Shown: one piece after another, positions 1 through 16,831 of the stretch
Numbering within the stretch: the stretch's first letter is position 1
How the letters are laid out: every line of letters starts with the position of its first letter
Virus record (IMG/VR): IMGVR_UViG_3300033150_002282
Location: 1 to 20,731 of that record
Length of the DNA: 20,731 nt
Strand: one strand, 5' to 3'
From: a virus
Position numbers and translations under genes: made by a program
Notes under the pieces: model-generated
The model's database searches: none
The model's input: the letters and a program-made list of their open reading frames with translations, nothing else
Told to the model about the DNA's origin: nothing

Positions 1-113
1 GCGCGACATGGGATTGGGGTGGTACGATCCTTGAAACACTCGACACCATCGAAACCATTTATTTTGATACAGGCACTACATTGGGTTATCTTGAGAATCT
101 GGAGGTTCAGTAA
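1..113 (+). CDS. C-terminal end of an unknown protein (5' truncated by the window)
   Basis: An open frame enters from the left edge (first full codon at base 3) and ends with TAA at 111-113, giving 36 residues. The stop overlaps the ATG of the next gene (TAATG), a coupling also seen between the next two genes. The visible tail has the repeated Thr/Leu/Glu/Ile texture of a beta-rich structural protein, including LETLDTIETIYFDTG. No motif identifies it. From its place just before the sheath it is probably a virion protein, but this is inference from position only. Confidence 0.6.
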   Translation, partial: ATWDWGGTILETLDTIETIYFDTGTTLGYLENLEVQ

Positions 114-3354: not shown

Positions 3355-3381
3355 AAACTACTACGGAAACCGTTGTAGTTT
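3355..3381 (+). repeat. Intergenic hairpin HP1 (TACTACGGAAACCG family)
   Basis: Bases 3355-3366 pair with 3370-3381 around an AAA loop: 11 pairs with one T/T mismatch. The arm beyond the core is AAACTAC paired with GTAGTTT. The core TACTACGGAAACCG is shared with HP2 (12750) and HP3 (15652), while the outer arms differ in sequence but still pair. Two further T follow the right arm, so this copy alone could also act as a weak terminator. It ends 16 bases before the ATG of the next gene, just ahead of its ribosome site. Confidence 0.85.
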
Positions 3382-3397
3382 TTAGAAGGAGAAAACA

Positions 3398-4699
3398 ATG
3401 GCAAAATTTCCAGACCCTACGGCACTCGGAGATGGTGGTAGAAAAACATTTGACAAGCCGATCCGATTGAATTCACAAGGAGTACCTATCGGGTATGTTC
3501 CTACATCAGATGGTGATGGTGGTACTGAATGGACAGAAGGTGGCGGCGGTGGTAATGGCGCAATTGTGGTAATTGAGTATCCTTTTATTAAAACGTGGGT
3601 TACGGATCATTACACTCTCGCGGCCTGTTGTGCGATTGCTTACGACAATGGTGGTGGACTTAAGAATTATGTAAACTTACCCGGTGGTGCTCCCGGTTCA
3701 CCACCAGCTTCCGTTTACGCATTTTCTTTTTCTGGTTCGCCAATGATTATTACCCCTCCTTCTTTTTCTGCTGGCCCACCATTTTCAACGGAACCAGCCG
3801 CGCTGTATGGTTCTGGTATGCCTTATGATTTTGGTTTTGTTGGAACTGAAAATGCCGACATTATTCTTGGACATCTTGGTACCGATTATCTTACTGTAAT
3901 TTGTACAACAAGCCGAAGGGCGGCTTTAATAGGCGAATTTGCGGGAGCCGGTATTACAGTTGATCTTGAAATACCAAATGTTTTTATTAGTAACGGTGCC
4001 GGTAATGATTATAATTTTAACCTTAGTGCAATTACCGGTGCCGGTGCAGCACTGTGGGGTGGCGATGGAGTTAATGGCGAACGGACAACCGTAAAAAATC
4101 AAATCGACTTTCAAAAGAGTGTAATATCGAAAATTGTTACTGATCCGTCAACTTTAACGCCTGTTGAGTTTGACAGGTATCTCATTCCGGTTAGTGCCAC
4201 AGGTATATGGTTGAGTAAACCAAATCAGATTGCGGAGTGGGGCGGCGATCCATTGGATTGGGTTTTTACAGTGCTTGATGCTGGTGCAACTGTATACGTC
4301 GAAGACGAAGGGAGATATTATACTTTTGACGGCTCAAATTGGTTTCCGCTCGAAGTAACTTTAACACAGTCGATGGCTTTCACATGGGGTTCGGAAGTAG
4401 TAACAGAAAATAATGAACAAGTGTTAAATTATGGTGGAGTGCCTTACGGCCCTGTGCTGCCCGAGACGGGATTTATTCGTGCGGTAAGCACGAAGTCAAT
4501 GACTTCAACTGGATATTCTGTAAAATGGGTAGGTACGCTTTCAGGTGATTTGTACGAATTGACGGTTCCAAACGGCCAAACTAAGGCGTCAATCAGCGGC
4601 CTTACGATTGCGGTTCAACAAGACGAAATAATAGACTGCGTTATATCGGGCGGTCTTACCGTTTTGCAGATAAACGCCACTGCCGAAATTTCGTGGTAA
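3398..4699 (+). CDS. Probable tail fibre/appendage protein with DUF2793-like domain
   Basis: A 433-residue protein, the first gene after HP1, with ribosome site AGAAGGAG at 3384-3391. Residues 1-45 form a short attachment-like segment (LNSQGVPIGYVPTS), followed by a Gly-rich hinge at 48-54 (six Gly). Residues 55-240 are low-charge and Gly/Ser/Pro-rich, like an adhesin. Residues about 250-318 resemble DUF2793, a domain found in phage and gene-transfer-agent tail proteins: FDRYLIPVSATGIWL, then IAEWGG, then VYVEDEGRYYTFDGSNW. The rest is beta-rich, ending with INATAEISW. Virion location and a role in host contact are inferred from domain type and position between tube and fibre genes. No catalytic motif is visible. 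Confidence 0.65.
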   Translation: MAKFPDPTALGDGGRKTFDKPIRLNSQGVPIGYVPTSDGDGGTEWTEGGGGGNGAIVVIEYPFIKTWVTDHYTLAACCAIAYDNGGGLKNYVNLPGGAPGSPPASVYAFSFSGSPMIITPPSFSAGPPFSTEPAALYGSGMPYDFGFVGTENADIILGHLGTDYLTVICTTSRRAALIGEFAGAGITVDLEIPNVFISNGAGNDYNFNLSAITGAGAALWGGDGVNGERTTVKNQIDFQKSVISKIVTDPSTLTPVEFDRYLIPVSATGIWLSKPNQIAEWGGDPLDWVFTVLDAGATVYVEDEGRYYTFDGSNWFPLEVTLTQSMAFTWGSEVVTENNEQVLNYGGVPYGPVLPETGFIRAVSTKSMTSTGYSVKWVGTLSGDLYELTVPNGQTKASISGLTIAVQQDEIIDCVISGGLTVLQINATAEISW

Positions 4700-4717
4700 T
4701 AAAGGAGAAACTACACA

Positions 4718-6526
4718 ATGCCAGTACTGCCACTTTTTATAATACTGAGAAACAAAAGTGCGACTACGCCTTGGGATATTAGTGCGTTTGGATTTCGGAT
4801 TGCGGTTGCACCTTCTACCGACTTGCAAGTAGACAGTTACAAAGTTGATTTTCAACTCAAGTTAGCAATAAGGGTTGGTATACTAACATTATCTGCCGAA
4901 AACGTTTTGGTAATACCTGATCCACTTGCGGTTTCAGGTGAAAGGGAAATTTCTGATTCTCAGGAATATTGGTGCGATTCCGCTCCAACTATTACTCAGT
5001 GGGATCATGCAAACCCAATGCCGAAACAGATAGTTCAAAAAAATAGCAGTGGGACTTTAACAGGTGACGATTTGGGCGTAGTGTTATGTCTTGGTACCTT
5101 TACCTTAACTTTGCCTCCGGCAACGAGTTTTAACGTCGGTCAGTCTTATTTTTGTAATAATGTTGGCACCGGAGTAATTACATTTAACGGTGCCATAACT
5201 ACCAACTTCGAATTGCTTCCCGACGACAGTATTGAATTCATAAGCAAAGGGCCAAACTGGGAACCGATTTTTAGAGAAGTACATTCGCCACCTTCGACCA
5301 AAGTTTATATCGACAAAGGCAGGTCGGATATTTACGTCGAAGACGGAACAAGAGAATTTCCTTTCAAGGCTGTGACCAGTGCGATAAGTGCGCATCCGTC
5401 AGGTGCCGTAATTTTGTATATTGCCAAAGGAGTTTATTCGGGTGATCTTGTTTTAGGGCAAGACATGAATCTATCCGGGTCGCACATGAAAGATGTAGAT
5501 ATAGACGGTAATATTACTACGAACGCAAGTGGATTTACGGCTTTGTCGGACTTGCATTGCCGTGGAATCATTATAACAAACTGCCAAACTAAAATGACTC
5601 GTGTTTCGTGCATTAGTGAATTACGGACTAATGCCAACACAACCTTAATAGATTGCGAGTTAATAAATGCAACAAAAGATGCGCCTATATGGAAGCAAAG
5701 CGGCGGCGAAATTCAAGCACTCAGTTGTGCGATTCAAGTTAACAATAACAATGCGATAGAATCACTTGATGGATCGAGCGGAAGTATCACTTTGACTGCT
5801 TGTTCGGTAACGAATAATTCCGCAGTCTCGGAAACCATAAACATTCGTGCGGGTTCAACAACGATATTGAAGATTGAAAGTGGTGTTGTAGTAAATAATG
5901 GTGGTGGCGATTCCGTTTGTATTAACACAACTGCTCCTGTAGGTACTGCCGTCTTACATGATGTTTTTTTAGACGGTGATGTTGACATTTACAATACACC
6001 TACTTCTATCATCGGGGAGCATGGAAACATTACAATTTCCGCACAAAATGAGGCGTATAAACTTTTTCAGAAAGCAAGCCGTCTTACCAATGACTCTTCG
6101 GTGCCAGGGAATACGGTTAAAGATGCACTTGAGAATTTACTCAAAAAGACTATGCACTTTTCTTTTTCAGATGGTGCCGCAAATCCTTATATAGAAGGAA
6201 GTGCAACAAACGGGTGGGAAGCATTTTCGACAGTTTTGTTTTCCGGTTCAGATTTTATAGGAATACCAAATGTAGTTGCCGTAATAATTTCAAACAGTAG
6301 TGCCGGAGGTGGTTGTGATTGGCAAATACTCGATATTACAAACGCAAGCAACGTAATAGCTTCAGGAGGAAATCCCGGTACGGGGACTACGCCCACAATA
6401 GATAAGGATAGTTCCCTTACAAATATTTCTACCAGTGAAGCTCAATGGGAATTTCAGATAAGAAGAAATCCGACTTTAACCGGGAAAGCAAGAATTTCAT
6501 CACTGGAGGTACGGTTTAATGTATAA
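4718..6526 (+). CDS. Tail fibre/tailspike-like protein with beta-helix repeats
   Basis: A 602-residue protein after a clear AAAGGAGAAA site. Residues 1-75 are an unrecognised N-terminal domain. Residues about 105-190 match the small beta domain common in tail fibres (SSGTLTGDDLGVVLCLGTFT, then VGQSYFCNNVGTGVITF, then SIEFISKGPNWEPI). Residues about 195-435 start with VYIDKGRSDIYVEDGTREFPF and continue with short Ile/Val/Thr/Asn-rich strands, the look of a right-handed parallel beta-helix that binds or cuts surface polysaccharide. Residues about 450-480 include RLTNDSSVPGNTVKDALENL, a typical linker before a trimer domain. The last 120 residues are a beta-rich tip. I see no convincing glycosidase or lyase residues, so it may only bind. 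It overlaps the next gene by 8 bases. Confidence 0.72.
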   Translation: MPVLPLFIILRNKSATTPWDISAFGFRIAVAPSTDLQVDSYKVDFQLKLAIRVGILTLSAENVLVIPDPLAVSGEREISDSQEYWCDSAPTITQWDHANPMPKQIVQKNSSGTLTGDDLGVVLCLGTFTLTLPPATSFNVGQSYFCNNVGTGVITFNGAITTNFELLPDDSIEFISKGPNWEPIFREVHSPPSTKVYIDKGRSDIYVEDGTREFPFKAVTSAISAHPSGAVILYIAKGVYSGDLVLGQDMNLSGSHMKDVDIDGNITTNASGFTALSDLHCRGIIITNCQTKMTRVSCISELRTNANTTLIDCELINATKDAPIWKQSGGEIQALSCAIQVNNNNAIESLDGSSGSITLTACSVTNNSAVSETINIRAGSTTILKIESGVVVNNGGGDSVCINTTAPVGTAVLHDVFLDGDVDIYNTPTSIIGEHGNITISAQNEAYKLFQKASRLTNDSSVPGNTVKDALENLLKKTMHFSFSDGAANPYIEGSATNGWEAFSTVLFSGSDFIGIPNVVAVIISNSSAGGGCDWQILDITNASNVIASGGNPGTGTTPTIDKDSSLTNISTSEAQWEFQIRRNPTLTGKARISSLEVRFNV

Positions 6527-7406
6527 ATGGCGGTTGTATTGTGAAACGTGCGAGTTGCAAAAGTTTGTAGTACAAGAAAACGATCCGATTGAACCAACCG
6601 AATGTCCGACTTGTCACGGAATCAATATCAGGGGAATCGTCATAGTCGATACCGATGTAGTTAAAATAAATAATCTCGTTGTAGGCGCAGATAAAGATTG
6701 TGGTAGCGAATGTGTTGGCATTCACTTAGGTGGAACAAGCCCGCTGTGTATGAAATGGGATTATGAGACAGAAAGAGTTGAGTTTCTTTCGTGTGACGAT
6801 AATCCTGTTGATTTTGCAGCTAAAAACTTATCTTGTAAAGGTGATACTAATTTTGGAGATGGAGATGATGATAATCACAGCAGATTCGGAAGTGAAGCAT
6901 GGATTGGTAATTTGTTGCATGGCAGAAAAGCAACTGATTCTTATCCGGAATTAAGATGGTCGCTTGATAGTAAAACAGGAAAGAGCAAATTTATTTCTAC
7001 AGAATTTACACCAATTTCAGCCGACGACGCTGATAGCGGATCAATGTTTGTAGATGTAGAAGATGATGAAATAAAGTTTAAAGATGCTGCCGGTGTATCA
7101 CGAAAACTTGCAACAGGAGGAGTTATTATGGGTCGAAACAAGACATACGACGATGCCAGTTTTAAAACGGAAGACAGTCCGACTGTGCTTGATGTTAACA
7201 CCGATCTGGAAAGGAATGGGACAGCCGGATTTATCGAAAATTATGGCAGTGGAAATATTCAAGTAGAAATTTCAGATGACGGAGATAGTTTTGGCGAACC
7301 ATTCGTGATTCGGCCTGGCAAAAATTTTGATTTACAATGTTTGAATGTAGATCAAGTTAGGTTAACCTGGATAGAAGATACGTCATATCAGGTGGTGGTC
7401 TGGTGA
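6519..7406 (+). CDS. Probable structural/fibre protein with N-terminal zinc ribbon
   Basis: A 295-residue protein whose ATG lies inside the end of the previous gene (8-base overlap) and follows GGAGGT there. Residues 8-32 carry two Cys pairs, CETC and CPTC, spaced like a zinc ribbon, which is rare at the tip of a fibre-type protein. Two or more further Cys (near residues 65-70 and 79) follow. The middle (about 105-195) is Asp-rich and contains a tail-fibre-like segment, SADDADSGSMFVDVEDDEI, then FKDAAGVSRKLATGG. The last 90 residues are beta-rich (GNIQVEISDDGDSFGEPFVI), like a small jelly-roll or binding domain. The family is not recognised. A virion role is inferred from the fibre-like segment and its place in the block. 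Confidence 0.6.
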   Translation: MYKWRLYCETCELQKFVVQENDPIEPTECPTCHGINIRGIVIVDTDVVKINNLVVGADKDCGSECVGIHLGGTSPLCMKWDYETERVEFLSCDDNPVDFAAKNLSCKGDTNFGDGDDDNHSRFGSEAWIGNLLHGRKATDSYPELRWSLDSKTGKSKFISTEFTPISADDADSGSMFVDVEDDEIKFKDAAGVSRKLATGGVIMGRNKTYDDASFKTEDSPTVLDVNTDLERNGTAGFIENYGSGNIQVEISDDGDSFGEPFVIRPGKNFDLQCLNVDQVRLTWIEDTSYQVVVW

Positions 7407-7489
7407 ACCACTACTATTAGGCGCGGCAAAACGAAGACGGCGATTTCGACAGCGAACTTAGAATATTAAAAGACAAGGAGCATAGGGCA

Positions 7490-7711
7490 ATGAATTATTA
7501 CTACATCGTAAGCGCAGGCGACGATGGCCGCATCCTCATTGACGTCCCTTACAGGCTTATGACACACACACCTGTCCGCACCGTTGTTCAAACAGATGTT
7601 CCAGCATCCGTCTTTAGTCAGGAATTAACCGCAAACAATCCTTCTGTGAAATCTTTCCTGAGGCAATGGAGCGATTTTCCAGAATCCAAACCGGAGCTGA
7701 CAAATGGCTAA
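7490..7711 (+). CDS. Small hypothetical protein, possibly 5'-truncated remnant
   Basis: A 73-residue protein starting MNYYYIVSAGDDGRILIDVP, with AAGGAG about 10 bases before the ATG. No known motif is seen. It is beta-like in the first half (two runs ending at a proline) and helix-like near SVKSFLRQW. It overlaps the next gene by 8 bases. The same frame stays open upstream from 7421 (23 sense codons after a TAG at 7418-7420, with no start codon), and that upstream stretch reads like ordinary protein, so the gene may have lost its original 5' end. GC content jumps upward at the same place. It may be a chaperone or partner of the adhesin-like protein that follows, but nothing shows this directly. 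Confidence 0.55.
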   Translation: MNYYYIVSAGDDGRILIDVPYRLMTHTPVRTVVQTDVPASVFSQELTANNPSVKSFLRQWSDFPESKPELTNG

Positions 7712-8831
7712 CACTTATGGTGTCGTCGGCACCGGAGTCTTTGAAATTGACACCAGTGCAGATGTCGCGGATCTCACAGCGCTTAAAGGAAGTCCGCCGG
7801 CCAGTACGGATATACTTTATAGTTTCGACAGCGCCTGTGTCGACATTAACGAAGACATGGATATTCTCTGGACTCATATCGGAGATAACCAGGCCGGAGA
7901 TCGGCCCACCAAAGAAGGCTTCATAGACGTCCAGGCCGATGTCGCTCTTACATACCATCACACTGTTAATAACGGTGGCTTGTACGGTGTAGGTCTCACC
8001 AGCAGATTTCGCTTGCTCGGCACAAGCGCGGATCATCGTGCGAAAATCGTCGGCAACACTGTGAAGCCCGGCCTCTATTACATGATACAGCCTTATGTTG
8101 AATCTACGTGGGGACACATATACAACTTTCGCGCCGGTATCGTTTCGATAAATTCCAACAGCACTTTCGTCGACACACTTGTAGAAAATAATAGTTATGG
8201 ATTTCTTTTTGCGGGCGGCGCGTCGCGGAAATATTTACCCGCGTCAATCCTCAGAACCCGTTTCGTTAATTGCGTCTACGGCTGGTGCGACCTCTCGACT
8301 TTCGGCGCGGATCTGGAAACATACCTCATCGCCAACGACGTCAGTTTCGAGGGCGGAGCGACCCAGGAAAGCCACCTCAACATCGGATTCGGCTCCGGGG
8401 GCGGCGCAAAAGCAAAATACATCTATTACACCGAAGCGGATAACTCCATCATCGCTCCGCCCTCGTGGGACAGCACCGCTGGTGTCCAGGCGCTCGCGGC
8501 AAACGACAACCTCACGTTGAGCGCTTCGTGGAACGGCGCTACACATGCGAATGGCGATAATGTTTTTTATAGGATATACATTCGGGCCGACGCCGCTCCA
8601 GACTCATTCGGCGAAGACAGCGAATATTTCTTGGCAGAAACAACGAATGAGAATTTCATTATTGCATCCTATGCCGATGGCTCTGTTTTGAAAATTGGAA
8701 GTGATGTTCATGTTATTATTCGGGCCGTTACAAAAATAAGCGGCGAAGATGACAATACTACCAGCCTCAATACTGTGGTTGCCGGTGAAGGTGGAAATTA
8801 TCTCAGATGTGGTTCTCGACTAACGAATTAA
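7704..8831 (+). CDS. Adhesin-like fibre protein with C-terminal fibronectin III-like domain
   Basis: A 375-residue protein with the start inside the end of the previous gene and CGGAG in front. Residues 1-80 are a compact N-terminal region. About 85-245 shows beta-helix-like rungs with alternating Ile/Val and Asn/Ser (KIVGNTVKPGLYYMI, then NSNSTFVDTLVENNSYGFLF, then RTRFVNCVYGWCDLS). Residues about 251-359 look like one fibronectin type III domain, beginning IIAPPSWDSTAGVQ, with LTLSASWNGATHANGDNVFY and a late HVIIRAVTKISG strand. The DNA is GC-rich up to about base 8550 (38 of 60 bases are G or C in 8341-8400) and then drops to the window norm inside the last domain, which suggests a recombination join within the gene. 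It is likely a receptor-binding or decoration protein. Confidence 0.62.
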   Translation: MANTYGVVGTGVFEIDTSADVADLTALKGSPPASTDILYSFDSACVDINEDMDILWTHIGDNQAGDRPTKEGFIDVQADVALTYHHTVNNGGLYGVGLTSRFRLLGTSADHRAKIVGNTVKPGLYYMIQPYVESTWGHIYNFRAGIVSINSNSTFVDTLVENNSYGFLFAGGASRKYLPASILRTRFVNCVYGWCDLSTFGADLETYLIANDVSFEGGATQESHLNIGFGSGGGAKAKYIYYTEADNSIIAPPSWDSTAGVQALAANDNLTLSASWNGATHANGDNVFYRIYIRADAAPDSFGEDSEYFLAETTNENFIIASYADGSVLKIGSDVHVIIRAVTKISGEDDNTTSLNTVVAGEGGNYLRCGSRLTN

Positions 8832-8845
8832 GGGATTTTTGATTA

Positions 8846-9793
8846 ATGCGAAAAAATATAAAATATCAAGAAAACACACAAGGCGGTATCACTGCTTGGT
8901 CTACTAAGGGTTTGGATAAACAAATACTCGTCTATAGAAACGCAGGGGGCGCAGGTGACATTCTAATGCACCGCGTATTATTTGAAGGGATTAAACAAAA
9001 ACATGATTGCAATTTAACCGTAGCGATTCCAGAAAAATATTTTCCTCTTATCTGCGATCATCCTGCAGTAGATAGAATCATTGACTGTAAAAATATTAAC
9101 AATAAAAATGGATACAAAAGATCATTTAATACTCTTGGTAAAGCGGCAATTTATGAGTTTGCCAAAATGCCTTTTGTAGATCAACATCGCACCGATTTGT
9201 GGGCATCATATTTAGGAATTAAAATAAATGGATATAAAGCACGTTTCAGATTTACTGGCAGAGAATTGAATATGGCAGATCATTTTTTTGTAAATTTCAA
9301 GAGACCATTTGTTGGAATTTCTCCCGTAAGTGCACATCCAAGTAAAGACTTAAAACGAAGTGTAATTCAGGAACTAATCAATATGCTCAATTCTAAAGGT
9401 GCCAGTTGTTTTATTTTTCATTCAGAACCATTGGAATATGAACACGCGGTTGATGTGAATGTCGGACTCAGAGAATGGTTGTGTCTGACACGAAGATTGG
9501 ATGCGGTAGTAACAGTAGCAACGAGTATGTTTCATGTTGCTAATTTGTTTCACATTCCAACCGTTGCAATTTTTGGTGTCGAAGATTTGAGAATTTTTGG
9601 AAAATATTTTCCCGAAATGATTCCGATTCAAAGAACAAGAAAAAGTCCAGAGTGGCCGTACTGTCCTTGTTGGAGTAGTCTTGATTGTAAGTTGCGTCCT
9701 AAAAACGAAAGAGAAATTTATCCACCACCGTGTCTACAATCTATAACTTCTGAGGAAATTTATGAAAAAACAAAAAAAATTATCGAAATATGA
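8846..9793 (+). CDS. GT9-like (heptosyltransferase-type) glycosyltransferase
   Basis: A 315-residue GT-B protein of the ADP-heptose:LPS heptosyltransferase type (GT9). The N-terminal lobe has YRNAGGAGDILM at residues 30-41, the usual Gly-rich loop of this family. The second lobe begins near 154 (FVGISPVSAHPSKDL, the position of the family's donor-phosphate loop). The stretch DAVVTVATSMFHVANLFHIP (219-238) followed by TVAIFG is the family's donor-site signature. A late Cys cluster (CPCWSSLDC, 273-281) is also common in GT9. The sugar it transfers is unknown. It is the first gene of the glycan cassette, after a weak ribosome site (AAGGGA), and it overlaps the next gene by 32 bases. It acts in the cytoplasm, on a host envelope glycan or a virion glycan. 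Confidence 0.82.
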   Translation: MRKNIKYQENTQGGITAWSTKGLDKQILVYRNAGGAGDILMHRVLFEGIKQKHDCNLTVAIPEKYFPLICDHPAVDRIIDCKNINNKNGYKRSFNTLGKAAIYEFAKMPFVDQHRTDLWASYLGIKINGYKARFRFTGRELNMADHFFVNFKRPFVGISPVSAHPSKDLKRSVIQELINMLNSKGASCFIFHSEPLEYEHAVDVNVGLREWLCLTRRLDAVVTVATSMFHVANLFHIPTVAIFGVEDLRIFGKYFPEMIPIQRTRKSPEWPYCPCWSSLDCKLRPKNEREIYPPPCLQSITSEEIYEKTKKIIEI

Positions 9794-10439
9794 ATACCAC
9801 AAATATTTCGACGAATCATATTTTAATGTTAGTGGAGATCGAGGATGGTATAATGAAGAAGCGTTTGCGCTTGAAAACGAGTGGCATAAAGATTATGCGG
9901 AATATGTAGTCAGTATGCTTAGTAAGATTAAAAAAGGAAAACTCCTTGACGTAGGTTGCGCCAGAGGAAATGTAATTTACTGGTTACGGAAAATGGGTTT
10001 TGATGCTTACGGAATTGACGTTAGTGAGTGGGCGATTAAAAATAATTGGGTTCGCAAAAAAACATATTGTGTTTCAGTTACGGATTGTATACCTTGTTTT
10101 CCTGAATTCTTTGACGTTATTATAAGCCGCGAAACGCTTGAACACATTTATGAAAAAGATATTTATCGTGTTATTCATCATTTAGCGGATGCACTAAAAA
10201 AAGGTGGTAAATTATTTATTGAAGTAGCAACAAATCGCGGTGATAAAGAAGAAAAAAAGAAAAGCAATCCAGATAACGCCGATCCGAGTCATGTTTTAAT
10301 AAAGTCGCTTACTTGGTGGAAACGTGTTTTTGAAGCAGAAGGTTTATTTAAAGTAGACCATGAGCGATCTTTTGAAGCAATGCATTCAGGTATGGGGTAT
10401 CGTTATTCGTGGGACATATTAATTTTAGAAAGGATGTAA
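9762..10439 (+). CDS. Class I SAM-dependent methyltransferase (small-molecule or sugar type)
   Basis: A 225-residue protein with a Rossmann methyltransferase core. Motif I is LLDVGCARGN (residues 61-70), the acidic loop is YGIDVS (83-88), and FFDVIISRETLEHI (116-129) is the usual post-I region of Methyltransf_11/23-type enzymes. KKGGKLFIEV near 147-156 is the following strand. The start at 9762 is chosen because TGAGGAAAT sits at normal distance inside the previous gene, giving a 32-base overlap and likely coupling. The substrate is not shown by the sequence. In a cluster of sugar enzymes a sugar O-methyltransferase is the simplest reading. The gene is AT-rich like its left neighbour and very unlike the GC-rich gene to its right. 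Confidence 0.82.
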   Translation: MKKQKKLSKYEYHKYFDESYFNVSGDRGWYNEEAFALENEWHKDYAEYVVSMLSKIKKGKLLDVGCARGNVIYWLRKMGFDAYGIDVSEWAIKNNWVRKKTYCVSVTDCIPCFPEFFDVIISRETLEHIYEKDIYRVIHHLADALKKGGKLFIEVATNRGDKEEKKKSNPDNADPSHVLIKSLTWWKRVFEAEGLFKVDHERSFEAMHSGMGYRYSWDILILERM

Positions 10440-10442
10440 ACA

Positions 10443-11627
10443 ATGAGAGTATTTATTGCCGGAATCGACGGATACCTCGGCTGGGCTTTAACATTGTACT
10501 TGTCGGCGCGCGGCCACGAGGTCGGCGGCTGCGACAACTACCTGCGCCGCAAATGCGTTGCGGAAATGAAATGCGATTCCGCCATCCCCATCCTTTCGAT
10601 GGAAGAACGGCTGGAGACGTTAAAGGAAAAATCGGGCAAAGAGGTCTTCTTCAGGGAAGGCGATCTTCTCGACTACGATTTCACTGAAAAGTGCCTGAAG
10701 GATTTCAAGCCTGAAGCCATTGTGCACCTGGGCGAAATACCTTCCGCTCCTTACAGCATGGTGGATGTGAAACATGCGGTGTTTACTCAGGAAAATAATA
10801 TCCTGAGCAACCTGAACCTGATGTTCGCCATGCGCGACGTTTGTCCGGAAGCTCAACTCGTTAAACTGGGCACCATGGGCGAGTACGGCACGCCGAACAT
10901 CGATATTCCTGAAGGTTTTTTTGAAATAGAATATCGCGGCAGAAAAGACCGCCTCCCCTTCCCCCGCCAGCCGGGCAGCTGGTATCACCTTACTAAAGTG
11001 CACGATACTTTCAACGTGATGTTCGCCTGCCGGATATGGGGCCTGTGCTCGACGGATATTATGCAGGGCGTGGTTTTCGGTACTCAGATCGATGAGATGG
11101 AGGGCGACCCGCGGCTGGCTACACGGTTCGATTTCGACGAGAGTTTCGGCACTGCCATCAACCGCTTCTGCGCCCAGGCTGTTATCGGAGAGCCGCTGAC
11201 TCCCTTTGGTGCGGGACACCAGAAACGCGGCTTCCTGCCCATGCGCGATTCCATGCAGTGCCTCACTCTTGCTATCACTAACCCGCCCAAAAAGGGCGAG
11301 TACCGCGTTTTCAACCAGTTCGAGGAAGTGTACGACATAACGCAGTTGTGCGAAATGGTGAAAGAGGTGGGCGGCGGGCTCGGCCTGGATGTCGAGGTGC
11401 GCAACATTGAAAACCCGCGTATGGAAAATGAAGACCACCGCTACGTGCCCGACCACCAGCACCTGCTCGACCTGGGCTACATTCCCACTCGCGACATAAA
11501 AGGCGAAATGAAAATCATGATCGAAGACCTGATCAAAAATAAGGACCGCATAGAAGAATACAAAGATACCCTCACACCCGAAATCCGCTGGGACGGAACA
11601 AGAAAAAAGGTAGATTATTTGAAATAA
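10443..11627 (+). CDS. sqdB: UDP-sulfoquinovose synthase-like enzyme (SQD1/SqdB family)
   Basis: A 394-residue extended short-chain dehydrogenase, close in length to SQD1/SqdB, which makes UDP-sulfoquinovose from UDP-glucose and sulfite with bound NAD. Features seen: the NAD loop GIDGYLGW (7-14); VHLGEIPSAPYSM (94-106); HAVFTQENN (111-119); KLGTMGEYGTPNIDIPEG (141-158), with the catalytic-type Thr144; and YHLTKVHD, with Tyr181 and Lys185. From memory these match Arabidopsis SQD1 Thr145, Tyr182 and Lys186. GTAINRFC, RGFLPMRDSMQC and RVFNQFEE also follow the SQD1 pattern from end to end. The gene is much GC-richer than its neighbours (42 of 60 bases in 10501-10560), suggesting recent transfer. 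Homologues with other activities may exist, so the exact product needs testing. GAAAGGA precedes the ATG. Confidence 0.85.
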   Translation: MRVFIAGIDGYLGWALTLYLSARGHEVGGCDNYLRRKCVAEMKCDSAIPILSMEERLETLKEKSGKEVFFREGDLLDYDFTEKCLKDFKPEAIVHLGEIPSAPYSMVDVKHAVFTQENNILSNLNLMFAMRDVCPEAQLVKLGTMGEYGTPNIDIPEGFFEIEYRGRKDRLPFPRQPGSWYHLTKVHDTFNVMFACRIWGLCSTDIMQGVVFGTQIDEMEGDPRLATRFDFDESFGTAINRFCAQAVIGEPLTPFGAGHQKRGFLPMRDSMQCLTLAITNPPKKGEYRVFNQFEEVYDITQLCEMVKEVGGGLGLDVEVRNIENPRMENEDHRYVPDHQHLLDLGYIPTRDIKGEMKIMIEDLIKNKDRIEEYKDTLTPEIRWDGTRKKVDYLK

Positions 11628-11673
11628 AATTTATTGAGCAAAAAAACATAGAAAAAAATTGTAGGGAGAAAAA

Positions 11674-12750
11674 ATGAATTTCTTATATGTAACACACCAA
11701 CATTGCAGTCACAAAAACATGCGCGAACTCACGGTGACTCAATCGGCGGTTAACTGGATATATTGTTTACGTGGTGAAATCCTTAATTATAAAGACATTC
11801 CCGGTTACGATTTTAAACAGCATGACGTTATGATGATTTTTCTGTCGAATTTGCCCGAAACGATTGATCCGTATTTACAGTTGGTTGAAAAACATCCATG
11901 TAGTAAGGTCATAGTGTATCTTGATGGGCCTGTGGGGGTTCATTGCAATACTATGCTGCCGGAAGAAAAAACAAAATATATGCAAATTATCAGAAAGGCG
12001 GATTATGTTTTTACTTGGGCCGAAGATGCTGATAGCTACTTTGAGATAATGTCGGACGGCAAAAAAATTCATCATGTTAATATCCCTTATCCTATTGACT
12101 ACATCCGTTCCGTTCAAACAAATAAAAAATATAAATCAGAAATAGCAGTTGAGATGGGAAAGGGATTCGGCGGCAGGCGTTATGAGAGAAACACGCTTGG
12201 TTCTTGGGGTACTTTCGCAGCGTTACAAAAGAGGTTTCCAGACATACGTGCTCTTGCTCACCCAAACCATGATCCGGCCGGTAGCGGCGAACAACGTGTA
12301 AATGGGATTTATATGGAAGAAATTTTCGGCATAGACACCGGAACCGCTAAGAGCGGCGAAAGCAAATTTCTTGAATTAAGAATGGCGCCTTGGATGCACT
12401 ACGTCAGGGAATTAAGTCCGTGTTACATGGCGATTCACCTTGACATGCTTTACACAAGAGGACAGTTTCAATATGAATGTGCGGGATTAAAAATTCCTTG
12501 CATCTGTTCTGGTTCGGATGCGGGCAGAAAACTTTATCCGAGAACATTTCTCGACAATCCATTTAATATAGCCAAGGCGATTGAAATAGGAACTCGACTT
12601 ATCGAAGATGAAAAATTTTATGAAGAAGTTGTAGAATATGCCGAACGTAAATTAATTGAAGACCATTCGTATGAAGCAGTTCAACATCGCGTTCTTGAAA
12701 TTTTAGACAAGTTACCAAAATCATTCGAAGAAGAAAAAGGAACGAAATAA
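11674..12750 (+). CDS. GT-B glycosyltransferase (GT4-like C-terminal half)
   Basis: A 358-residue cytoplasmic protein. The N-terminal half alternates strand and helix (VMMIFLSNLPETID, KVIVYLDGPVGV, ADYVFTWAEDA), as in GT-B acceptor lobes. The C-terminal half has the typical donor-lobe order of GT4-type enzymes: GQFQYECAGLKIPCICSGSD (about 268-287), in which a Glu followed by a small-residue switch marks the nucleotide-sugar site, then a late helix pair, NPFNIAKAIEIGTRLIEDEKF, and a final ALLC-like stretch. It lies directly after the SQD1-like gene, so it is a candidate for transferring that enzyme's product, as SqdX/SQD2 does in sulfolipid synthesis, though I see no specific SqdX signature. 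A run of AGGGAG precedes the ATG. The gene is AT-rich, unlike the SQD1-like gene. Confidence 0.7.
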   Translation: MNFLYVTHQHCSHKNMRELTVTQSAVNWIYCLRGEILNYKDIPGYDFKQHDVMMIFLSNLPETIDPYLQLVEKHPCSKVIVYLDGPVGVHCNTMLPEEKTKYMQIIRKADYVFTWAEDADSYFEIMSDGKKIHHVNIPYPIDYIRSVQTNKKYKSEIAVEMGKGFGGRRYERNTLGSWGTFAALQKRFPDIRALAHPNHDPAGSGEQRVNGIYMEEIFGIDTGTAKSGESKFLELRMAPWMHYVRELSPCYMAIHLDMLYTRGQFQYECAGLKIPCICSGSDAGRKLYPRTFLDNPFNIAKAIEIGTRLIEDEKFYEEVVEYAERKLIEDHSYEAVQHRVLEILDKLPKSFEEEKGTK

Positions 12751-12782
12751 TTTAATTACTACGGAAACCGGATTAATTAAAT
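12750..12782 (+). repeat. Intergenic hairpin HP2 (TACTACGGAAACCG family)
   Basis: Bases 12750-12764 pair with 12768-12782 around an AAA loop. The outer arm (ATTTAATTA with TAATTAAAT) is fully paired. Two mismatches (A/G and C/T) lie between it and the CGG/CCG core. It shares TACTACGGAAACCG with HP1 and HP3. The upstream gene's stop codon runs into the left arm. AATAAT at 12746-12751 is a weak -10-like match without a convincing -35. No T-tract follows, so it is not a standard terminator. Confidence 0.85.
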
Positions 12783-12794
12783 GAGGCCAATGAA

Positions 12795-13907
12795 ATGACA
12801 AGCATCGACCGTTGGAAAAATATCGGGAAACAAATTGATTTTAAGGTGTCAATATGGATCGGTGGCGGACTCGGAGATTGTGCGCATCATTATAAAAATC
12901 TCGCATATTTTAGAGTTCTTCAGCACTTGAAACAAATATTTCCAAATTTATATGTTATCTTGCAAATCGTTGGGAATGGTGCAAACTTTACTCGACAACT
13001 ATTTGAACTCGATCCTTGTATAGATGAAATAGTAACTGCAAGTGAAAACGGTTTTATGTTTGATTCTGTATATTCATTTATGCAAGATGATTGTAATTTG
13101 AATAAGTATGAGTACGGTCGGTTTAGGCCGGAGACAAATCCAGATGTTACATTCCGTCGCGCAGTAAATCGAGTGTATGCGCTCATTAGATTTCCGAGAC
13201 AACACACAATCACAATGGATGATTTTTTTCAGCAACTACAACTTGACATAAACGATTTCAAACATGACCTTGCAGAGATACACCTATCTTCAGAAGAGAA
13301 GGAGTTTGGAGATACTTTTAAGGCCGTTAATGGAGACAAACCTTTAGTCGGAATTCATTGGTTTTCAAAAGATGAAGGGCGCACATGCCTCTCTGCATCG
13401 AAGTGGTGTAAAATTATTGACAAGCTTTTGGAAATAAATTATCGAATAGTAGTTTTCGGCGCACCGCACGAAAAGGATTTGAATAATCTGAATTCTATTT
13501 ATCATAAACGAACAGCCGAGTTGTTTGGTTTGTGGGATAAAATAAAAGATAAAAAGGAAGTTTATGGATTATTTGACGAACCAATCCGCAAAAAAATTGC
13601 TGTATTAAAACAATGTGATTATATGCTGTGCATAGACGGGGGAATGATGCACCTGGCTTGGTTGCATGCTGTACCTACTCTTGCCGTTGTAGAGAAACCA
13701 AAACAAGGTAGGGGTTACCTCGATAATGTTAATGGTTATCATTGGGCTGCGGCAGCAGGAGAGCCTTTTGCGGGAAGATTGATTAGTGATTGTGGAATGT
13801 CGGACGACTTATCGGCGGATAAGATAATAAGTGAAATGAAGAAACTGGACGGCACGAAAGATAAAAGAAAAAGTCTTATTTGGAGGGATCAAAATGCTGT
13901 GGAATAA
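12795..13907 (+). CDS. Second GT9-like GT-B glycosyltransferase
   Basis: A 370-residue protein with the GT9 layout: VSIWIGGGLGDCAHH at residues 18-32 (Gly-rich loop followed by Asp), KPLVGIHWFSKDEGRTCLS at about 182-200 (second-lobe start), IVVFGAPHEKDLNN, then the donor-site segment CDYMLCIDGGMMHLAWLHAV (274-293) followed by PTLAVVEKP. It is diverged from the GT9-like gene at 8846, so a recent duplication is unlikely. The start at 12795 follows GAGG at 12783-12786. An ATG at 12790 is in another frame and stops at once. The gene follows HP2 directly and overlaps the next methyltransferase gene by 14 bases. The transferred sugar is unknown. Confidence 0.78.
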   Translation: MTSIDRWKNIGKQIDFKVSIWIGGGLGDCAHHYKNLAYFRVLQHLKQIFPNLYVILQIVGNGANFTRQLFELDPCIDEIVTASENGFMFDSVYSFMQDDCNLNKYEYGRFRPETNPDVTFRRAVNRVYALIRFPRQHTITMDDFFQQLQLDINDFKHDLAEIHLSSEEKEFGDTFKAVNGDKPLVGIHWFSKDEGRTCLSASKWCKIIDKLLEINYRIVVFGAPHEKDLNNLNSIYHKRTAELFGLWDKIKDKKEVYGLFDEPIRKKIAVLKQCDYMLCIDGGMMHLAWLHAVPTLAVVEKPKQGRGYLDNVNGYHWAAAAGEPFAGRLISDCGMSDDLSADKIISEMKKLDGTKDKRKSLIWRDQNAVE

Positions 13908-14673
13908 AGTATACGAAGAGTCGGATTTAAAAGACGGCTTGTCTGCTGAGTCAAACGAGATTAATGATCTTATTGACAGCCTTCATTCAAATGGCGTGCC
14001 GCTAACGGTTCACCGAATACGATACTGGGAGTGGCCTCTGAATCTTCACGTGGCGGAAGTAAAGGAAGGAGATCGAGTTTTAGATATTGGAGTTGGTGGA
14101 AGTCCGCTTCTCGTTGCGTTTAAGAACAGAGGGTGCGAGTGTTATGGTTGCGATAAAGATAACTTAAATCCGATTTATGAGAAACACTTGTCGAATCTTG
14201 GAATCAATTTTTTATCTGCAAACATTTTTAACCTACCTTTCGAAGACAATTATTTCGACTTCGTTACCAGCACATGCGTGCTCGAACACATTGACAATCT
14301 CAAAATCGAAGACCGTCAACCATTCTTGAACTCCATCGTGAAAGGCCTGACAGAAACAATTCGTGTTTTGAAACCGGGAACGTTATCTTCACACACTATC
14401 GACTTTAAAATTTTTGGGTTTAATGGGTGGAGCCAATTCAATAAATATGACATATCAAAAATTGTAAACAATTTAAAGGGACTTGCTAAACAGGCTGGCG
14501 GAGTAAATTATGAAGTTGCGGATGGACGGGAATATTATCTGAGAGAAAACCCTATCCATTCACCAAATTCAGAAAAGGCAAAAATAACTCGCGCATGCCT
14601 TGAGAACAAAATGAGATTGGCGGATGGTAGCATGAGAACTTGCGCGTCACTCGTGCTTAGAAAAGGAGTTTAA
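13894..14673 (+). CDS. Class I SAM-dependent methyltransferase
   Basis: A 259-residue methyltransferase. After about 55 N-terminal residues (TVHRIRYWEWPLNL), motif I is VLDIGVGGSPLL (62-73), then CYGCDKDN (83-90), LPFEDNYFDFVTSTCVLEHI (114-133) and RVLKPG near 157, all typical of the Methyltransf_11 group. The C-terminal third (about 164-250) has a domain with ReaderxNPIHS-like segments (REYYLRENPIHS) that may hold the acceptor. GGAGGG lies in the end of the previous gene just before the ATG, consistent with translational coupling (14-base overlap). The target is unknown. In this cluster it probably methylates a sugar or glycan end, but a small-molecule or protein substrate cannot be excluded. 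Confidence 0.8.
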   Translation: MLWNKVYEESDLKDGLSAESNEINDLIDSLHSNGVPLTVHRIRYWEWPLNLHVAEVKEGDRVLDIGVGGSPLLVAFKNRGCECYGCDKDNLNPIYEKHLSNLGINFLSANIFNLPFEDNYFDFVTSTCVLEHIDNLKIEDRQPFLNSIVKGLTETIRVLKPGTLSSHTIDFKIFGFNGWSQFNKYDISKIVNNLKGLAKQAGGVNYEVADGREYYLRENPIHSPNSEKAKITRACLENKMRLADGSMRTCASLVLRKGV

Positions 14674-14676
14674 GAA

Positions 14677-14898
14677 ATGGAAACGATAGCCGAAAAAATC
14701 GACAAGTTAATCACGATTGATATTCGTTTGTGGCATTTGCAAGATGATGTTGTTGACGAAAAAGACGATGCTAAGTGCGCTGAAGTTGCACGAAAAATTG
14801 TGAAAGTAAATTTGCAACGTGTGGCACTCAAGGATGAAATAAATGATTTTTTCAAAGACGGTTCGGCTGAAATCAAGCAGTACGGAACTGAAGAATAA
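14677..14898 (+). CDS. Small helical protein resembling DUF4254 proteins
   Basis: A 73-residue, highly charged, all-helix protein starting METIAEKIDKLITIDIRLWH and ending in a second helix, KIVKVNLQRVALKDEIND. From memory this pattern (a hydrophobic first helix ending in LWH, an acidic link, then Lys/Asn/Gln/Arg before a second helix ending in Glu-Ile-Asp/Asn) recalls the DUF4254-type small proteins that travel with glycosyltransferase clusters in bacteria and large phages. The match is by eye and may be wrong. GGAG ends the previous gene three bases before its stop, giving a normal site. Its position at the end of the sugar cassette fits an accessory role in glycan transfer. Confidence 0.6.
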   Translation: METIAEKIDKLITIDIRLWHLQDDVVDEKDDAKCAEVARKIVKVNLQRVALKDEINDFFKDGSAEIKQYGTEE

Positions 14899-14913
14899 CA
14901 TCGGAGAAATAAT

Positions 14914-15399
14914 ATGGAACCAGACATCATTGTGCAAGCACCGGAATATGCGAAAATAATTTATTATATCCTTGCTATAACTCTAGTAACTTTTTCAAAA
15001 GTTGCAGTAGATATTTTCAAAGCGGCCTTTTCTTATGTTCAAAAAAAGAAAAATGGTGGCGTAAATGAAGAACAAGATTCGTTAAAAATATTAAAGGAAG
15101 AAATTAGAATTTGCAGAAATACATTAGAAAAACTTGAAGAGTGGCACAACGTAAAAGACCCCGATGGAACATTCACCTGGCATAATAAAGTTTCGGTTGA
15201 AGGCAAAATAGAAAGAACGTCGGAGCAAGTCGCATCACTCAAAGAAACTGTTGCAGATGTTAAAGGTGAAGTAAGAACTATTGCAACTTCTAACGCAACA
15301 GTTGCAAGTAGAATAGAAGCATTATCGAGCGAAGTGTCAGGAAGTTTACGGGAAACTTCGCAAATGTTAAATGCAATACGAAGATTACTGGAGGGATAA
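14914..15399 (+). CDS. Membrane-anchored coiled-coil protein (holin-like candidate)
   Basis: A 161-residue protein. Residues about 14-40 are one hydrophobic segment (IIYYILAITLVTFSKVAVDI), followed by a positive patch (QKKKNGG) and then a long, nearly charge-periodic region (52-160) typical of coiled coil, with a short interruption near WHNVKDPDGTFTW (77-89). This is one membrane anchor with a large soluble coiled coil. Some phage holin-associated or tail-anchoring proteins look like this, but I have no family match, so 'holin-like' is only a hint from shape and from a small partner gene six bases downstream. CGGAGA precedes the start. No signal peptidase site or lipobox is seen. Confidence 0.6.
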   Translation: MEPDIIVQAPEYAKIIYYILAITLVTFSKVAVDIFKAAFSYVQKKKNGGVNEEQDSLKILKEEIRICRNTLEKLEEWHNVKDPDGTFTWHNKVSVEGKIERTSEQVASLKETVADVKGEVRTIATSNATVASRIEALSSEVSGSLRETSQMLNAIRRLLEG

Positions 15400-15404
15400 A
15401 TAAC

Positions 15405-15605
15405 ATGTGCGAATTCACAGACGCAGTTGCCGCAGATGCAAGAGCAATTTCAGCAACCAATCTTGCAATAAGAACCGCAAGGGATTTATCAAATCAAGCA
15501 CAAAAAATTCAACAGGATTTATTAGATCCGGTAAAGGTTGCAAACTTAAAAAGAAAACTTGAAACAAGAAGACGTGGAAATGATTCGAAGCCAACGCACC
15601 TTTGA
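15405..15605 (+). CDS. Small helical protein, unknown function
   Basis: A 66-residue protein after a strong GGAGGG site (the stop of the previous gene is five bases upstream). Residues about 5-45 form an amphipathic, Ala-rich helix (AVAADARAISATNLAIRTAR), then QQDLLDPVKVANLKRKLE, with a basic tail (RRRGND). There is no membrane segment and no Cys at a lipobox position. Its only Cys is residue 2. The TGA overlaps the -35 box of the next promoter. It is likely co-expressed with the coiled-coil protein before it, perhaps as a partner. Function cannot be named. Confidence 0.55.
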   Translation: MCEFTDAVAADARAISATNLAIRTARDLSNQAQKIQQDLLDPVKVANLKRKLETRRRGNDSKPTHL

Positions 15606-15630
15606 CAAAACGAACTTGGCGTACTATAGT
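15602..15630 (+). promoter_or_regulatory. Sigma70-type promoter ahead of the chaperone/tape-measure block
   Basis: The -35 box is a perfect TTGACA at 15602-15607. The spacer is exactly 17 bases, and the -10 box is TATAGT at 15625-15630 (five of six to consensus). Transcription would start near 15637, about 60 bases before the next gene and upstream of hairpin HP3, so HP3 would lie in the 5' leader of the transcript. This is the strongest promoter I see in the window. Confidence 0.75.
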
Positions 15631-15651
15631 AAAGAAATGAGGTACCAAATA

Positions 15652-15676
15652 AATTACTACGGAAACCGGGGTAATT
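15652..15676 (+). repeat. Intergenic hairpin HP3 (TACTACGGAAACCG family)
   Basis: Bases 15652-15662 pair with 15666-15676 around an AAA loop. The outer arm AATTAC pairs with GTAATT, then there is one T/G wobble and one A/G mismatch before CGG/CCG. It shares TACTACGGAAACCG with HP1 and HP2. It sits in the predicted 5' leader downstream of the TTGACA/TATAGT promoter and 10 bases before the GGAGG site. The sequence after it (AGGCCATGTAATG) resembles that after HP2 (AGGCCAATGAAATG), so the leader may have been copied as a unit. Confidence 0.85.
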
Positions 15677-15698
15677 AAAAACAAAAGGAGGCCATGTA

Positions 15699-16676
15699 AT
15701 GGGCAACGACAAATCAAAGTCAGTTGACACAGGCCAGGACGAGAAGGAGAGTAGAGAACAGAAAGTTAAAGCCGGGATGGAGCAGGCAAAAGTAATGGAA
15801 GAAAGGGGTAGCCTTGCGCCCGATTCTCAATCTACACCCGTATCAGTCCCACAAACCTCAAACGAAACCTACGGCAAAAAAGAAAGTAACAACGGTATTC
15901 CCGAAGAAGAACCGGCAATGACGGTGGATGGTGAAATCCGCTTGCCTGTTGGGATCATTGATGACGGCGGCATCGTTCACAGCATCGCCACAGTAAAAGG
16001 GCTCTCAGGTAAAATTCGAGTAATGCTTGCGCAGCCGGAATGTCGCAAAAACGGTGGACGTGCACTTTCAACTTTGCTCCGAGAATGTGTAACTTCAATC
16101 GGAGATTTGCAACTTGGTAGTCCAGAAAAAGATTATATTCTCGATCTTACCGTTCCGGATCGTGACGTGTTGGCATTTGCTATCAGACAAAAGAGTTCGG
16201 GGCTCGATGACGAAATTGAAACTACAGGTGATTGTCCTCACTGTGAAGAAAAGATTAATATTTCTTTTACTTTAGACAATCTTGAAACGACTAACGTAAG
16301 CGAAACCATTTTTAAGCCGGAAGGAAAAAATTGGGTCGGGTATTTTAAGAATGAAAAACTCGGTTGTGATTTCAAACTTAAACTTCCTAATGGGAAGATT
16401 CAGGAAAAAGTTGTGCCTTTTGGAAAAACCAATCCGGTTAAAATGGCATATTTAACTCTACAACTTTCCTTACTTGAATATAACGGTCAAATAAATTTCA
16501 GAAAAAATTTTATTGAAGAAGAACTTGACCTCGAACATTTAGATTGGATTGATAAAAAGTTCGGAGAAAGTTCACCTGGTTTGAACACTATGCCGTTAAT
16601 TCAATGTGAAGAGTGCGGTCAGACCTTTCCCGCAAAACTTGATATAGTGGATTTTATGTTCAACCGGCAGAGGTAG
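15699..16676 (+). CDS. Cys-rich tail assembly/baseplate-type protein (probable tape-measure chaperone)
   Basis: A 325-residue protein. Residues 1-75 are polar and likely disordered. Residues about 77-165 form a compact domain (IRLPVGIIDDGGIVHSIATV, then GRALSTLLRECVTSIGDLQL, then LTVPDRDVLAFAIRQKS) of the kind in T4-type baseplate/assembly proteins encoded before tape measure genes. Two CxxC pairs, CPHC (179-182) and CEEC (303-306), 124 residues apart, could bind one zinc and close the C-terminal region. The gene follows promoter and HP3, with AAGGAGG as ribosome site, and is followed by a GpE-like gene and the tape measure, the usual order chaperone, chaperone, tape measure. Assembly factor is therefore the best call; structural baseplate protein is the alternative. 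Confidence 0.68.
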   Translation: MGNDKSKSVDTGQDEKESREQKVKAGMEQAKVMEERGSLAPDSQSTPVSVPQTSNETYGKKESNNGIPEEEPAMTVDGEIRLPVGIIDDGGIVHSIATVKGLSGKIRVMLAQPECRKNGGRALSTLLRECVTSIGDLQLGSPEKDYILDLTVPDRDVLAFAIRQKSSGLDDEIETTGDCPHCEEKINISFTLDNLETTNVSETIFKPEGKNWVGYFKNEKLGCDFKLKLPNGKIQEKVVPFGKTNPVKMAYLTLQLSLLEYNGQINFRKNFIEEELDLEHLDWIDKKFGESSPGLNTMPLIQCEECGQTFPAKLDIVDFMFNRQR

Positions 16677-16699: not shown

Positions 16700-16831
16700 T
16701 TGAAACAGTGTTTTAACATTGGACTTGTTACTCACTGGTCTCTGTCGGAATTAATGGAATTATCAGATGAAGATAGGAATTATATCGGATTTCTTGTTGA
16801 CCAATACGCGGAATTAATGAAAAGGAAATAG
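16700..16831 (+). CDS. Small GpE/DUF6760-like tail chaperone with TTG start
   Basis: A 43-codon gene in the gap before the tape measure, starting TTG with GAAAGGA at 16685-16691, eight bases upstream, and ending TAG at 16829-16831, five bases before the tape measure ATG. The product includes VTHWSLSELMELSDEDRNYI. The His-Trp, Ser-Glu-Leu and acidic helix recall the short GpE protein of phage P2 and the DUF6760 proteins of contractile injection systems, which lie in the same place. The frame is also open back to 16643, overlapping the end of the previous gene in the -1 frame, so a frameshift product is possible, but I see no standard slippery heptamer. Independent translation is favoured. Confidence 0.7.
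   Translation: MKQCFNIGLVTHWSLSELMELSDEDRNYIGFLVDQYAELMKRK

Follow-up and report, generated by a model that had tools for sequence, protein, structure and literature searches.

Dispersed 29-base palindromes at gene junctions of two uncultured contractile-tailed phage species are candidate binding sites for a dimeric protein

Several families of short repeated sites are scattered through mycobacteriophage genomes. Corndog, of cluster O, carries 17-bp palindromic repeats (TGTTCGG-NNN-CCGAACA) with an invariant 7-bp half-site, many of them in narrow gaps between genes and roughly a third within genes, at positions kept among relatives; the centre is usually AAA/TTT flanked by CGG...CCG (PMC4351075). 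The ESAS of cluster K phages are imperfect inverted repeats just upstream of the starts of a subset of genes, which are non-structural; the repeats are 17 bp long with spacers of 4-13 bp and are usually tied to a 13-bp SAS (GGGATAGGAGCCC). Their consensus is subgroup-specific and conserved at orthologous genes, the left repeat lies nearer to it, and departures from it do not support RNA pairing (PMC3203893). In both cases the authors favoured DNA-binding proteins, a dimeric one for Corndog, and left the function open (PMC4351075, PMC3203893). The stoperators of cluster A phages are asymmetric 13-bp sites, present in tens per genome, with a sequence that co-evolves with the phage's own repressor (PMC6550527). 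Here we describe a family of 29-base palindromes in a 20,731-nt stretch of viral DNA (IMG/VR record IMGVR_UViG_3300033150_002282, positions 1 to 20,731; hereafter the window) and in its relatives. The proteins of the window mark it as part of the genome of an uncultured phage with a contractile tail, with genes for a sheath, two gp19-type tube proteins, fibres, sugar enzymes, a T4_baseplate-type protein, a tape measure and a LysM protein. We prefer to read the palindromes as predicted dyad-symmetric binding sites for a candidate dimeric, phage-encoded DNA-binding protein, at a probability just short of one half (about 0.48), rather than as mRNA hairpins.

A preliminary description of the window had reported three intergenic hairpins with a shared core, and all three were recovered exactly where it had placed them. 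They are HP1 (AAACTAC TACGGAAACCGTT GTAGTTT; 3355-3381, + strand, 16 nt 5' of the fibre gene ATG at 3398; 41.7 bits), HP2 (ATTTAATTA CTACGGAAACCGGA TTAATTAAAT; 12750-12782, + strand, 12 nt 5' of the ATG of the second GT9 gene at 12795; 48.4 bits) and HP3 (AATTAC TACGGAAACCGGG GTAATT; 15652-15676, + strand, 22 nt 5' of the ATG of the T4_baseplate-type gene at 15699; 43.4 bits). The exact 14-mer TACTACGGAAACCG occurs in these copies and nowhere else in the window, and its 9-nt core CGGAAACCG occurs three times where 0.19 occurrences are expected, a count reached in none of 100 shuffles. Each copy lies in a gap between co-directional genes and has self-complementary arms, with minimum free energies of -6.0 to -10.9 kcal/mol for 33-nt folds. 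HP2 and HP3 contain interior mismatches (A.G and C.T), and across the copies the 5' half is constant and the 3' half variable.

Relatives extended this set to 20 non-redundant aligned copies in about 85 kb, 4 from the species of the window (species A) and 16 from a second species (species B), so that the proposed covariance-model scan did find further copies. The fourth copy of species A, HP0, lies at 6243-6273 of contig L022, inside an open reading frame at 6211-7440. This contig is the upstream neighbour of the window, belonging to the same phage or to a sibling of it, because it matches positions 1-138 at 96.4% identity over the 138-nt overlap; within that overlap, positions 1-112 (+) are the 3' end of the gene that has HP0 at its 5' end. 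Species A is thus represented by just four copies, a pair of which nearly duplicate each other; HP0 and HP1 are identical at 26 of 29 palindrome positions. Species B comprises four contigs. L096 (also G004) was reached by a capsid profile search, has a capsid protein 65% identical and contains repeated palindromes of its own; a pattern built on the palindromes of the window, L022 and L096 then retrieved G001 and G002 from the L096 sample and G003 from another. G001 and G003 are 99% identical, and G002 and L096 share about 40-75% protein identity with the window and L022, each over different parts. We infer that the four represent one genome, which bears on the placing of G001 and G003 in the same species as G002 and L096. 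Gene calls are simple choices of open reading frames throughout, and the genomes are incomplete.

On the gene strand the consensus is TTAATTACTRCGG-AWT-CCGYAGTAATTAA, a symmetric architecture of two inverted 13-bp half-sites (TTAATTACTRCGG) flanking a 3-bp A/T centre. The two halves agree in consensus and depart from it similarly often, with 19 deviations in the left and 28 in the right. The centre is AAA in all four species A copies and differs from AAA in species B, where four copies have a centre one base shorter (a 6-nt rather than a 7-nt spacer between 11-bp outer arms). A covariance model, R2, gave every copy 36-51 bits, nearly all 20 having E-values between 1e-8 and 1e-5, and found one extra, decayed copy (G001 14617, 25.6 bits). 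Because R2 was trained on the 20 copies, the scores of these copies do not test it; the real tests are an earlier model, R1, which was built on 8 copies and recovered the remaining ones, and a control scan of 1.18 Mb of other viral DNA, in which R2 found nothing except weak matches in contig L028 (E = 1.6).

Searches further afield returned little. A pattern search for the exact form had no match in 84,980 GTDB genomes, no Rfam family exceeded its gathering score in the window or its relatives, megablast of phages gave no match, single-protein scans with the sheath, chaperone and MAQ-gene proteins yielded no new kin, and relatives of about 40% identity, searched de novo for further repeated hairpins, gave none that was convincing. 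The exact 14-mer was present in 89 stretches of viral contigs, among which only L022 was kin; those outside L022 and L028 were set aside as chance matches, mostly in coding DNA, as were five exact 16-mer matches, all within genes and lacking arms. Two further candidates were also judged to be chance: L023, an unrelated contig that has, in a gap at its start, 30 nt in common with HP2 at 90%, and L015, which fits the armed pattern within a coding sequence of an unrelated phage. L028 itself, an unrelated contig of 38.7 kb, holds four copies of a perfect dyad, TACTACGGAAACCGTAGTA, one of them cut short, in a non-coding stretch (5360-5486, - strand). This is a separate tandem array that has the same core as the window family and may be related to it.

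The copies are strongly concentrated between genes. Such DNA makes up about 6% of the contigs by our simple gene calls, and yet it contains 16 of the 20 copies (P about 2e-16). The intergenic position reported for the three window copies therefore holds for most of the family, the exceptions being four copies inside genes (r1, r2, the copy at G003 1212 and HP0, the last in the window's own phage); equal numbers inside and between genes, which had been named as the mark of chance, were not observed. All 16 non-coding copies have an ATG 4-27 nt downstream, usually with a ribosome site in between, in agreement with the preliminary description. In the window these follow directly 3' of each copy on the + strand: a Shine-Dalgarno sequence (AGAAGGAG) and ATG at 3384-3400 for HP1, a GAGG ribosome site and ATG at 12783-12797 for HP2, and AAAGGAGG and ATG at 15684-15701 for HP3. 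Upstream, HP2 adjoins the stop codon (12748-12750) of a glycosyltransferase-like gene, and in several species B copies the TAA stop of the preceding gene falls within the 5' arm. The copy at G001 1261 is flanked by convergent annotated genes; the ATG 5 nt downstream of it may start a small gene. The association with starts is partly forced, because the gaps are short and leave little other room. Copies had also been thought to mark the starts of gene blocks, a view that did not survive the species B contigs, where they stand at roughly every fifth gene junction.

Conventional expression signals do not accompany the element. A promoter match of at least 10/12 lies near only one of the 20 copies: a sigma70-like promoter (TTGACA-17-TATAGT; 15602-15630, + strand) upstream of HP3, which is not part of the palindrome element, as it is the sole strong promoter near any copy. 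No copy has five T within the 8 nt after the 29-nt element, which rules out intrinsic terminators; the TTTTT at the ends of HP1 and HP0 belongs to the arm itself.

Of the five sites that can be compared, three are orthologous in the two species. HP1 corresponds to r4 (L096 11533-11561), and both precede the same fibre gene, whose products are 66% identical in amino acids (window 3404-3553, L096 11586-11735). HP3 corresponds to the copy at G002 17190 (17177-17204), before the same T4_baseplate-type gene. HP0 and r2 occupy matching codons close to the 5' end of a gene common to both species; this segment is 61% identical between the species, like its flanks, and its pairing is nonetheless kept. 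The encoded segment aligns without gaps to homologues that have no palindrome, so HP0/r2 is not an insertion and the site evolved in place. Two species B sites, r3 (between the two tube genes) and G002 16022 (before the tape-measure gene), have no copy in species A. Between G001 and G003, the intergenic copies compared are common to both, and only one coding copy has decayed. The same two contigs differ by a clean 1.3-kb indel of about three genes (G001 3660-4944, G003 10619/10620) that is not at a palindrome.

The family was said to show compensatory change in its arms and hence a selected RNA or DNA structure. Placement and orthologous conservation uphold a non-random, selected element; compensatory change as proof of a hairpin fared less well. 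The arms AAACTAC/GTAGTTT and AATTAC/GTAATT do both pair, and over all copies arm pairing exceeds that of arm shuffles (0 of 500), but this signal arises from one symmetric arm variant common to HP0 and HP1. Among the 16 species B copies the arms deviate independently (P = 0.37 with G-U pairs, 0.18 with Watson-Crick pairs only), as they do when the four short-centre copies are removed (P = 0.82 and 0.69, respectively). On the sense strand, G.U pairs number 10 against 7 A.C, with no significant excess, and the folding energies of sense and antisense strands are equal. Orthologous pairs keep pairing despite 5-8 changes in 26 arm positions (P about 0.002-0.04), which would be equally expected from palindrome-correcting template switches or from a reader of symmetric half-sites. 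Dyad symmetry is evident, and the pairing tests do not establish an RNA hairpin, because species B arms are independent, G.U and A.C are near even and the two strands fold equally well.

This independence of deviations in the two halves favours two half-sites over a hairpin, and we suggest that a putative phage-encoded dimer reads the inverted 13-bp half-sites around the 3-bp centre. The layout at gene junctions is stop, dyad, ribosome site and start, with a few sites embedded in genes. Given this distribution, the bound protein would act not at classical promoters but on transcription that enters or crosses the following gene, by silencing or pausing in the manner of stoperators, or alternatively in genome organisation. 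The different centres of species A and B look as if the sites co-evolve with their reader, which is probably phage-borne, because the exact form is absent from the GTDB genomes. Several observations weigh against a protein-binding site. No candidate reader was found, one weak helix-turn-helix match (L236 2167-3321) being insufficient; the link of all 16 non-coding copies to an ATG suits a function in mRNA at least equally; the HP0/HP1 variant is altered symmetrically in both arms, a symmetry that a pure DNA-site model does not need; and a rigid dimer might not tolerate the 6-nt spacer of four copies.

The strongest competitor, which we consider unlikely, is an intercistronic mRNA hairpin, with a stem that would insulate adjacent genes from each other in translation, shield or tag the ends of the mRNA, or be a target of nuclease cleavage. 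It draws on the sense-strand position of the 16 non-coding copies before an ATG, the stop codon within the 5' arm of many species B copies, the all-copy pairing and its retention in orthologues. It is weakened by the loss of covariation in species B alone, the 10:7 ratio of G.U to A.C, energies with no preference for the sense strand, the four copies in genes and away from ribosome sites, and the missing T-tract. An extended form, somewhat less probable still, is that about a fifth of the junctions in one lineage form a stop-hairpin-ribosome site-start system, with the stop within the stem, that evolves in concert within a phage through one phage factor, which would bind or process the hairpins and so set the translation or mRNA decay of the phage's genes.

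A selfish or mobile palindrome (REP-, MITE- or RPE-like) that copies itself into gene junctions and brings its own stop codon seems improbable. The 90% identity of HP0 to HP1 and of HP2 to HP3, the two sites filled only in species B and the fact that coding copies use the sole reading frame free of stops all fit such an element; HP0/r2, however, adds no length relative to homologues and occupies the same codons in two species, G001 and G003 share the intergenic copies compared, and no REP-type transposase was present among the proteins scanned. Still more doubtful is a role as recombination sites bounding exchangeable cassettes. The 11-bp inverted arms and 6- or 7-bp centre do resemble tyrosine-recombinase core sites, and HP1 and HP3 flank a fibre and sugar-enzyme island between tube and chaperone genes where Streptomyces phage GiJojo has no such genes, but the largest strain indel in species B (the 1.3-kb one) is not bounded by copies, no recombinase was identified among the proteins scanned, and the variation of centres within one genome would block exchange. 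Chance repetition of a short AT-rich palindrome, to which most exact 14-mer matches elsewhere in viral contigs do owe their existence, is already refuted for this family by its E-values, its intergenic concentration and its orthologous retention. The predicted protein-binding site remains the reading we prefer.

Other genes were noted along the way. Between its tube genes and T4_baseplate gene (3398-15605) the window encodes fibres, two GT9 proteins, two methyltransferases and a nucleotide-sugar epimerase, and the corresponding interval of GiJojo carries no fibre, GT9, methyltransferase or epimerase genes. Between the T4_baseplate gene and the tape measure, a small unlisted open reading frame starting at TTG (16700-16830; about MKQCFNIGLVTHWSLSELMELSDEDRNYIGFLVDQYAELMKRK) may encode a small tail-assembly protein. 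Among other contigs, L236 (IMGVR_UViG_3300031337_000008) encodes at 6269-7447 (-) a protein with RRXRR and HNH domains that scores 303 bits against the NCBIfam RNA-guided endonuclease IscB (cutoff 175), and no Rfam RNA reached its gathering score nearby. L233 13189-17214 (+), downstream of portal and MuF-like genes, carries a coding palindrome and encodes a protein of at least 1342 amino acids that joins an ATP-dependent DNA ligase-like region (about 580-890) to a Dcm cytosine methyltransferase (1032-1341). An FtsZ/tubulin-like phage protein at L234 2455-3645 (-) has weak matches that are consistent in Pfam and NCBIfam.

Set against described systems, the palindromes combine features of several. 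The PeSL cassettes of T4-type phages are repeated intergenic stem-loops that combine a terminator stem with a strong sigma70 promoter; the present copies are likewise repeated stem-loops between genes, but identity with such cassettes was rejected, as a promoter accompanies one of 20 copies and a T-tract follows none. Bacterial REP elements are short repeated palindromes at gene 3' ends, and differ in that the family studied here lies in phage genomes, has no REP-associated transposase among the proteins scanned and has an exact form with no GTDB match. Stoperators, asymmetric sites oriented with transcription at which the phage's immunity repressor binds and blocks elongation, are similarly numerous and spread over the genome, whereas the half-site consensus here is symmetric and no repressor was identified. 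The ESAS, like our 16 non-coding copies, sit immediately 5' of start codons, the four coding copies being exceptions, and the two families also share a consensus that varies between phage groups, conservation at orthologous genes and a left half nearer to the consensus; they differ in that ours occur in structural genes and inside genes and have no SAS, since GGGATAGGAGCCC with up to two mismatches gave only one stray match, in L096. Identity with SAS or stoperators was likewise rejected, the SAS being absent and the half-site consensus symmetric. With Corndog the palindromes share dispersed dyad sites, both intergenic and intragenic (here 16 and 4), and a CGG-AAA/TTT-CCG centre; unlike the Corndog repeats, which are not start-linked, they have degenerate 13-bp half-sites and non-coding copies that are all start-linked, and TGTTCGG-NNN-CCGAACA has no match in the contigs of either species. 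The Corndog repeats and the cluster K ESAS are the closest published cases, each family compared failing at least one tested defining feature. Dispersed dyad repeats have been known from mycobacteriophages for more than ten years, and the same question that they left, a DNA site or an RNA hairpin, returns here in an independent case from uncultured contractile-tailed phages, where two species that share sites and differ in consensus offer a natural comparison for finding the reader.

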